A stretch of 33,685 bases of DNA from a filamentous cyanobacterium CCP2 (GTDB lineage: Bacteria; Cyanobacteriota; Cyanobacteriia; Elainellales; Elainellaceae): contig PVWD01000035.1 in the NCBI GenBank assembly GCA_003003615.1, forward strand, positions 1 through 33,685, given 5' to 3'. Below the pieces are notes generated by a model that saw nothing but the letters and a program-made list of their open reading frames with translations, was not told the DNA's origin and ran no database searches. This document shows positions 19,227-20,919 of the stretch, one piece after another. Made by a program: the position numbers and the translations under genes. The stretch's first letter is position 1. Each line of letters opens with the position of its first letter.

Positions 19227-19308
19227 TGGGCAGAGTCGGACTCGAACCGACATGACCGAAGTCGCCACATTTTGAGTGTGGTGCGTCTACCAATTTCGCC
19301 ATCCGCCC
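19227..19308 (-). tRNA. tRNA-Leu(CAA)
   Basis: An 82-nt class II tRNA on the minus strand. The acceptor stem is GGGCGGA with TCTGCCC. The D-arm contains AATTGGTAGACGC, the anticodon loop is CTCAAAA (anticodon CAA, reads UUG) on stem CCACA/TGTGG, the variable arm is long as in Leu tRNAs, and the T-loop has GGTTCGAGTCC. The CCA end is not encoded. Its first 20 bases, plus CCAA before them, are duplicated exactly at 19737-19760. Confidence 0.96.
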
Positions 19309-19312
19309 TTGG
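19289..19312 (-). repeat. 24-bp direct repeat, copy 1 (tRNA-Leu 5' end)
   Basis: This copy covers the first 20 bases of tRNA-Leu(CAA) and four bases before it. It is identical to 19737-19760. The 448-bp period and the gene content between the copies suggest an insertion or local duplication at the tRNA 5' end. Confidence 0.9.
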
Positions 19313-19399
19313 ATGCAGCTTCACTATTATAGTGCATTAGTAGTCCTTCTAACAAAGATTCGTTTTTGACTCACAATTTAACCAGATCAGCCAGGAGTT

Positions 19400-19672
19400 T
19401 TACTGCATACCCCCATTTCGACCTTGAGCGATCGCCTGAATTAACTGAAGCATTAATGCGCGATCGGCTTCTGCCCTTCGTTCCGCTTCTTCATGACGAC
19501 GCATCGACTCTTCATGACGACGCATCGACTCTTCATGCTGTTGGTCGTGGATTCTTACGATATCCGCCAAGGTAGAAACAGTAGATTTGAGATCTGAAAT
19601 CGATCGCTTCAACTCCTGCATATCAATTTCAACCGCTTCCACTCTAGATTCAAGGTTTTGTGGATCTGCCAT
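19400..19672 (-). CDS. Small coiled-coil protein with internal heptad repeat
   Basis: A 90-aa charged protein without a named family. MADPQNLESRVEAVEIDM opens a predicted coiled coil with heptad spacing, followed by SDLKSTVSTLADIV and a repeated EESMRRH unit, and ends QLIQAIAQGRNGGMQ. Small coiled-coil proteins of this form are frequent in cyanobacteria, but I know no function. The ATG at 19672 has AGGA 8 nt upstream. An upstream ATG at 19750 in the same frame lies inside the tRNA-derived repeat and would overlap the M48 gene end by 16 nt, with AAGGG just before it. The gene is the only one in the segment bracketed by the 24-bp repeats. Confidence 0.6.
   Translation of the reverse strand: MADPQNLESRVEAVEIDMQELKRSISDLKSTVSTLADIVRIHDQQHEESMRRHEESMRRHEEAERRAEADRALMLQLIQAIAQGRNGGMQ
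19490..19537 (-). repeat. 21-nt tandem repeat in the coiled-coil gene
   Basis: Two exact 21-nt copies (19490-19510 and 19511-19531) and a 6-nt partial third encode EESMRRH units. The length is a multiple of three, so copy number changes keep the frame and the heptad phase. Confidence 0.85.
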
Positions 19673-19734
19673 AGGAATTCCTAAAAGCGTAGTCGCCCAT
19701 TTTACTCTCAAGAGTTGCTCTAGAGGGGGAACTG

Positions 19735-20610
19735 TCACCAATTTCGCCATCCGCCCTTGGCTTTCGCTTCGTCCTTACCGTGCATTAATTGCCCTTGCAG
19801 CAAAGATTGATAATCTTGAGTGCTGGCCCACCGATCGATTTCTTTAGCCCGCAGGACAGGAACAGGATGGGTCAACTGTTCGGTTTGAATTTGCCGCAGC
19901 ATTTTGCCCAACTCATTGGTGCTGTTTTCTTCATAGGAGCGGGCTTGCGCTAAAAATGCATCTAAGTTTAGTTGAGGAGCTAAGGAAGGCGAACCGCCCG
20001 ACAACTTCATCAAAACGGATGCCACCACTCTTGGATCTTGCGCCACCAACAAGGCGGCCCGATCGCACGTAAATTCAGCACAGCGTACCCATTGCAGAAT
20101 CTGGGTTTGCAAGCTCTGAGCCAGTAGACCCCCCAGAGGCGTGAGTTGCCCTGCTGCCAACACCACTAAGTTCGCCAGGGTTAAATAAACGCTGTGTTCA
20201 CACTTGAGGTGCCCCAGTTCATGGGCAATGACCGCCTGAATTTCTTCTGGAGTGAGTAGCTCAATCAGCGAAGTGTGGATCACAATGAAGGGCTGCTTGC
20301 CCCGCATGGCAAAGGTATACGCATTAGGAACAGGATGCTGCCGGACATACAGTTGGGGCGGCTCCAGATCTAAAATTTGACAGGCTTCAATCAACAGCTT
20401 GTAAATGTGGGGAAGCTGTTGTTCACTCACCAAGATGCTGGAGGCGATGTTGTCTAGGTAAAATACCTGCTCTGCAACACCCCCCAACAGTGTACGAATC
20501 ACTAGATCCAGGGCTGGAATTTGCTTTAGGGTATTTGTGGCTTCTAAATCAAGCGGGTGGCGAAAATGGTCAGATTTTAGACCAATGAGAGCCGTTTTGG
20601 AGTGAGACAT
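19735..20610 (-). CDS. M48-family zinc metallopeptidase
   Basis: A 291-aa peptidase. The zinc motif HELGH lies at residues 130-134 (EIQAVIAHELGHLKCEH), and EFTCDRAALL near residue 185 supplies the third ligand Glu. Two hydrophobic stretches (LTLANLVVLAAG and TPLGGLLAQSL) suggest membrane association, as in HtpX-like enzymes, which degrade damaged membrane proteins. I prefer the ATG at 20610, because homologues start shortly before FRHPLDxEA; the frame is open to an ATG at 20661. The last residues KGGWRNW and the stop are encoded by a copy of the tRNA-Leu(CAA) 5' end. Confidence 0.9.
   Translation of the reverse strand: MSHSKTALIGLKSDHFRHPLDLEATNTLKQIPALDLVIRTLLGGVAEQVFYLDNIASSILVSEQQLPHIYKLLIEACQILDLEPPQLYVRQHPVPNAYTFAMRGKQPFIVIHTSLIELLTPEEIQAVIAHELGHLKCEHSVYLTLANLVVLAAGQLTPLGGLLAQSLQTQILQWVRCAEFTCDRAALLVAQDPRVVASVLMKLSGGSPSLAPQLNLDAFLAQARSYEENSTNELGKMLRQIQTEQLTHPVPVLRAKEIDRWASTQDYQSLLQGQLMHGKDEAKAKGGWRNW
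19737..19760 (-). repeat. 24-bp direct repeat, copy 2 (M48 gene 3' end)
   Basis: Exact copy of the tRNA-Leu(CAA) 5' end. Read in the M48 frame it codes for KGGWRNW, and the next codon is TGA. In the tRNA copy the same frame would continue with TAG. So either arrangement ends the peptidase at the same residue. Confidence 0.9.
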
Positions 20611-20919
20611 AAGCAGTTTAATGCTGCGCCTTAATCGCGCAAACAACCATCCTAAGCTCATTGTAGCGAGGAATAAAGGAATCGATAGGAGCGAAAGTCC
20701 GATTTCACTTCACACAAGCTTCAAAAATTCTTGGCCAGAACTCTGCATGAACTGCTCGGATTGGCTCTGGATGACACTGTATGGCTGACTGAGGCTTTAC
20801 GGGTCGTGGGTGTGTTAACAAGGATATTTTTAGCAGCCTCTTTGCCCATAAGTTCTACCCAATGACTGGATTGATATCTAGATCTGCCATTGGTTTTCGA
20901 TACATTGAAGGAGAAAAAG
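20611..20919. other. Divergent intergenic region, M48 peptidase / protoglobin
   Basis: About 310 nt between divergent genes (260 nt if M48 starts at 20661). It must hold both promoters. I see no clear promoter hexamers, palindromes or RNA structure. Confidence 0.5.

Follow-up and report, generated by a model that had tools for sequence, protein, structure and literature searches.

The locus studied here lies in a window of 33,685 nucleotides (the whole stretch of DNA analysed, contig PVWD01000035.1 of the filamentous cyanobacterium CCP2), in which a tRNA-Leu(CAA) gene and the gene of an M48 metalloprotease are separated, without overlap, and a small coiled-coil gene is placed between them. 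The features of the locus are the following.

19227-19308, minus strand: tRNA-Leu(CAA), intact (ARAGORN)
19289-19312, minus strand: exact 24-bp repeat, tRNA-side copy (the first 20 nt of the tRNA and the 4 bases preceding it)
19309-19360, minus strand: relic of the 3' end of the M48 coding sequence, today the upstream region of the tRNA (72-nt repeat, translation, profile score)
19326-19331, minus strand: TATAAT, predicted -10 box of tRNA-Leu(CAA), 23 nt before tRNA nt 1
19350-19355, minus strand: TTGTTA, predicted -35 box, with a spacer of 18 to TATAAT
19400-19672, minus strand: gene of a 90-aa coiled-coil protein between the two copies, no family match
19688-19703, minus strand: possible stub of a lost first tRNA copy (AAAATGGGCGACTACG against AAAATGTGGCGACTTCG in the tRNA), suggestive only
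19735-20661, minus strand: M48 (HtpX-like) metalloprotease gene (PF01435, E 8.7e-21), stop TGA at 19735-19737
19737-19760, minus strand: exact 24-bp repeat, M48-side copy (repeat search)
19738-19755, minus strand: GGWRNW codons, the tRNA-derived C-terminal hexapeptide of M48 (comparison with relatives)
19737-19808, minus strand: 72-nt repeat, M48-side copy, which translates as QSLLQGQLMHGKDEAKAKGGWRNW and carries GGTAAG in place of TATAAT (Gly-Lys for Tyr-Asn)

The 24-bp repeat noticed in a sequence-only reading of this DNA is real, and it corresponds to the core of a longer direct repeat (19289-19360 and 19737-19808) of 72 nt, with 78% identity and a period of 448. Translation of the open frame also bears out that the copy at the M48 end codes for KGGWRNW followed by TGA. 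Translation of the tRNA-side copy in the frame of M48 yields ESLLEGLLMHYNSEAASKGGWRNW-TAG without internal stop, the TAG being inside the tRNA. The tRNA is therefore preceded by a second copy of the protease 3' end. Moreover, this stretch scores 30 bits against a profile built from the M48 tails that overlap the tRNA in relatives, with the tRNA itself excluded, and the match is not due to chance (best score of 4.2 bits in 1360 shuffles; 5 bits or more in 1 of 43 upstream regions of other tRNAs). What remains of the overlap in the window is then GGWRNW and the 24-bp copy in M48, and the relic before the tRNA.

The M48 protein shares with the HtpX/M48 zinc metalloproteases (PF01435) a catalytic domain with an HExxH-type motif, being HELGH in this case; however, it scores far below every NCBIfam HtpX cut-off and bears a cyanobacterial tail ending in GGWRNW. 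In the predicted structure, residues 292-308 show pLDDT values under 50 and are devoid of secondary structure, and GGWRNW lies in this low-confidence tail. A PDB sequence search returned one weak match (4fm3).

M48 loci were gathered from cyanobacteria, giving a first set of 182 unique loci and 211 rows once deeper lineages were added. In the first set, 113 M48 genes end inside tRNA-Leu(CAA), always at a TAG in the D-arm and with an overlap of 22 nt, whereas the tRNA is found 30-3027 bp downstream in 33 loci and beyond the flank read in 32. The ancestor predicted from the window alone, with M48 ending in GGWRNW inside tRNA-Leu(CAA) and nothing between, corresponds to the arrangement of most relatives, including the nearest ones (G002/L003 and L032), and the predicted stop at the D-arm TAG holds for 113/113 of these genes. 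Neither a separation of all relatives nor an absence of KGGWRNW, which the same reading had named as telling against its ancestor, was found. In the 211 rows, 119 are overlapped, that is, a same-strand open reading frame runs into the tRNA and stops inside it; 64 are separated with a GGWRNW-like end; and 28 lack such an end. The overlapped ends are nearly all (G/E/K)WRNW-TAG (GGWRNW in 100, GEWRNW in 11, and GKWRNW in 2; n = 113) and differ only where the tRNA differs. Two loci, L145 and L269 (G054 and G096), resemble a near-overlap, their M48 gene reaching a TAA a few codons ahead of the tRNA, and the reading frame past this stop continuing into the tRNA (GKWRN). Also, the ends GWRHW, GWW, AWLDW, and AWW of L268, L270, L271, and L275, respectively, may be decayed forms of GGWRNW in lineages losing the motif.

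The same M48-tail profile finds relics upstream of separated tRNAs, both when these are near M48 (26/32) and when they are far from it (17/29), and in 0/7 never-overlapped lineages; for 6 near and 12 far separated tRNAs, no clear relic was found in this search. The tRNAs located today far from M48 would often have retained the predicted promoter of the M48 tail. In G050, G159, G304, G206, and G148, M48 is separated and two copies of tRNA-Leu(CAA) are present, some of them few kb apart.

Regarding the segment between the repeats, it contains only the coiled-coil open reading frame, which has no Pfam or NCBIfam match. Its most likely start is at 19672, giving 90 aa, since the listed 116-aa frame merely uses an ATG inside the repeat. 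A perfect 21-bp tandem duplication (19488-19529) inside this gene repeats EESMRRH. The protein is a member of a small accessory family whose genes are located at unrelated sites in relatives and have no flanking tRNA there, and neither the segment nor the protein has a plasmid match. The possibility that this or other spacer genes were former downstream neighbors of the tRNA was considered and rejected, because they are not found there in overlapped relatives; then, duplication alone does not explain the arrival of the coiled-coil gene, which is a passenger between the two copies. Elsewhere, the spacers hold unrelated genes (small proteins, or an alpha-hydroxy-acid oxidase-like gene in Nostocales) or consist only of 78-80 nt without a gene, as in L018, L172, and L220. 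Most of the separated Nostocales (L093, L086, L103, L175, and others) have this oxidase-like (lactate/glycolate) gene in the spacer between M48 and tRNA-Leu(CAA). Unrelated genes, or none, across lineages argue that no common element is involved.

An informative arrangement is found in L207, where the overlapped tRNA is intact, its -10 element is already AATAAT, and a 126-bp duplicate (93%) of the M48 tail and the whole tRNA is located 2.8 kb downstream. In its congener L224, the first tRNA has been lost. L207 represents an intermediate of the separation, in another lineage than that of the window, for which the own intermediate is unseen and no closer relative was found. Also, some loci have short tRNA stubs downstream of the M48 stop (combined p of 3e-4 over 32 loci, relatedness not being corrected for), and the one of the window gives a p of about 0.007 by local alignment and of 0.19 if anchored at the stop; a complete pseudo-tRNA was also sought by profile downstream of this stop, with no convincing result. 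These data bear on an alternative in which the coiled-coil gene was inserted by another route, the 72-nt repeat being a target duplication from break repair with no prior duplication of the tail and tRNA. Such an insertion would yield the gene and the repeat in a single event, and would fit the absence of the coiled-coil gene beside the tRNA in overlapped relatives. However, it does not account for the gene-free separation in L018, L172, and L220, for the whole tRNA in the L207 copy, or for the tRNA stubs after the M48 stop, and we consider it unlikely, although it keeps some plausibility.

The sequence-only reading had left two mechanisms open, a local duplication and a new kind of mini-insertion at a tRNA 5' end. 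The first one is favored because of the M48-tail duplicate before the tRNA, the intermediate found elsewhere, and the unrelated or absent spacer genes in other lineages; the second one finds no support, given these same spacers. A more elaborate version is the insertion of an integrative element that attached at the tRNA 5' end, supplied M48 with a new tail, and was later reduced to the coiled-coil gene. It would agree with the direct repeat in the tRNA gene at both segment ends and with the integrity of both genes. Nonetheless, the segment has no integrase and no terminal inverted repeat, the repeat involves nt 1-20 of the tRNA and neither its 3' end nor its anticodon arm, the corresponding position in other lineages is occupied by unrelated genes or just by about 80 nt, no tRNA flanks the coiled-coil homologues, and neither the segment nor its protein has a plasmid match, which makes this scenario very unlikely. 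A transposon insertion was rejected, since inverted repeats are absent from the segment ends and the duplication is of 72 nt, not short.

The direction of the change was taken from the root and the relics, because change counts alone give no direction. In a FastTree phylogeny of M48 without its tail, rooted on the Gloeobacterales group, the window sits between the overlapped rows L003 (support 90) and L032 (support 92). Being nested among overlapped relatives, the separated state of the window is, on this topology, derived. Parsimony requires at least 18 changes between the overlapped and separated states, with 10 independent pairs on well-supported branches, so that according to the tree the separation of M48 and the tRNA arose repeatedly in cyanobacteria. 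In Gloeobacterales, 9-38 nt separate the M48 stop from the tRNA, the two genes do not overlap, and GGWRNW is missing, which suggests that adjacency probably came first and overlap later. It could be argued that separation is ancestral and that overlaps arose repeatedly by deletion between repeats, a deletion that is possible in itself, given that Gloeobacterales and a few other lineages are adjacent without overlap. However, these lineages lack both GGWRNW and the M48-tail relic (0/7) and so look pre-overlap, the separated rows are scattered among overlapped ones on the tree, and the relics before separated tRNAs derive from coding sequence. We therefore regard this alternative as highly improbable.

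The M48 tail would also contain a promoter element of the tRNA. A match to TATAAT of at least 5/6 is found within 52 nt before the tRNA-derived codons in 119/119 overlapped genes versus 7/64 separated M48 tails, the -10 box being absent from the protease copy in 57/64 separated loci. In 88/113 overlapped genes, the best hexamer starts 23 nt before tRNA nt 1, where TATAAT codes for Tyr-Asn, and a Tyr-Asn-like dipeptide is present in 108/113 overlapped versus 5/63 separated proteins. On the other hand, the sequence before the separated tRNA retains the -10 match in 29/32. Complementary loss is thus observed, with the -10 box gone on the M48 side and kept on the tRNA side, and among 10 phylogenetically independent pairs a mean of 9.5 agree and 0 oppose (sign test p of about 0.002). 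In the window, TTGTTA-18-TATAAT precedes the tRNA at 19355-19326, with TATAAT at the modal position of the overlapped relatives and GGTAAG at the matching place in M48; a -35/-10 scan gave 2 sites in the region versus 1.3 expected by chance and is not significant alone. The TATAAT in the last M48 codons is then presumed to be the -10 box of tRNA-Leu(CAA) from its consensus, position, and co-variation. As an exception, L107 keeps TATAAT in the M48 tail, with a tRNA-Leu only 30 nt downstream. In this locus (Chlorogloeopsis), tRNA-Leu(CAA) is shrunk to a 5' stub, and the tRNA-Leu just downstream has a different acceptor sequence; this second tRNA-Leu seemingly uses the old promoter, a possible case of tRNA gene replacement.

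The fate of the peptide can be followed in its codons. The overlapped genes use only CGA/CGG for Arg and only TAG as stop, whereas in the separated genes GGWRNW is kept while each of the six Arg codons, four Gly codons, and three stops occurs. On the tree, GGWRNW in separated genes accumulates 6 amino-acid versus 96 codon changes, and the linker of eight codons just upstream about 245 versus 309. GGWRNW thus survives despite free synonymous change and is maintained today at the protein level, so that a peptide present in the protein because of the tRNA 5' end is now under selection on the protein. That it persists only through recent separation, or as an attachment or regulatory DNA site, might be read from the six GGWRNW codons of the window, still identical to the tRNA, but this is hardly credible in view of the 96 codon versus only 6 amino-acid changes across the separated lineages.

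Altogether, these observations are best explained by a dual-use sequence that was duplicated and whose copies then degenerated in complementary ways, a reading to which we assign a probability of roughly 0.86; neither an embedded promoter nor a protein-level retention of the tRNA-derived peptide was part of the sequence-only reading. The ancestral locus would have been a single dual-use stretch in which the last M48 codons held the -10 box of tRNA-Leu(CAA) (TATAAT, Tyr-Asn), and the last six codons together with the stop coincided with nt 2-22 of the tRNA. In the lineage of the window, a presumed local event duplicated at least 52 nt of the M48 tail together with the 5' end of the tRNA, and probably the tRNA as a whole. 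Then, the protease-side copy would have dropped the remaining tRNA and the promoter letters while keeping the reading frame and GGWRNW, and the downstream copy would have retained the promoter and the tRNA, drifting as protein. The duplication would have come first, the first tRNA and one of the promoters would have been lost afterwards, and the small coiled-coil gene would have come to occupy the spacer. This same route was taken repeatedly in cyanobacteria, leaving GGWRNW as a protein motif. The separation may also have relieved a conflict, because the maturation of the tRNA by RNase P would deprive the M48 mRNA of its stop codon. The sequences themselves show the overlap in relatives, the duplication, the complementary loss, the codon pattern, and the recurrence of the process; the activity of the promoter, the molecular event behind the duplication, the relief of this conflict, and the role of GGWRNW are inferred. 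A more tentative extension, somewhat more apt to be wrong than right, is that GGWRNW is a functional C-terminal signal co-opted from the tRNA 5' end and that RNase P maturation, by cutting the overlapped M48 mRNA before its stop, ties protease synthesis to tRNA-Leu(CAA) production, repeated separation being an escape.

The locus corresponds to a natural repeated experiment in which one DNA stretch serving as protein, presumed promoter, and tRNA is taken apart. With more than 100 genomes fused, dozens resolved, and one intermediate, the steps can be ordered. Moreover, it offers a testable case of a tRNA sequence turned into a selected peptide and, for annotators, a reason to retain this CDS/tRNA overlap.

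In duplication-degeneration-complementation (subfunctionalization), a sequence with two functions is duplicated, after which one function is lost from one copy and the other function from the second copy. The present case is alike in that two copies from one ancestral dual-function sequence show complementary loss, but the unit is of about 70-130 bp instead of a gene, and the functions are protein coding versus tRNA promoter and 5' end. Phages and genomic islands integrate at tRNA genes, so that a direct repeat of the tRNA end flanks the insert and the tRNA is restored. Here a direct repeat of the tRNA end also flanks DNA and the tRNA is restored; however, the repeat is at the 5' end, there is no integrase, and the contents are unrelated between lineages. 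For the M48/tRNA-Leu(CAA) overlap itself, no paper was found in the open-licence PubMed Central literature. Among published cases, the closest one found is that of selB and tRNA-Sec (selC), with the tRNA nested in the gene or overlapping it. There, a same-strand tRNA overlaps the 3' end of an open reading frame and is translated as a C-terminal extension; the paper presents it as the first tRNA reported to be nested inside an open reading frame of a bacterium, and partial overlap, overlap loss, and a remnant after small-gene insertion are also reported (Mukai 2021, PMC8124441). In selB-selC, the gene of the tRNA's own elongation factor contains either the complete tRNA or about half of it, whereas in M48-tRNA-Leu only nt 1-22 overlap, with an unrelated M48 protease. 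Furthermore, the M48-tRNA-Leu system differs in the predicted tRNA promoter within the codons, in the rescue of both parts by duplication, in the number of recurrences, and in the protein-level selection on the peptide after separation.
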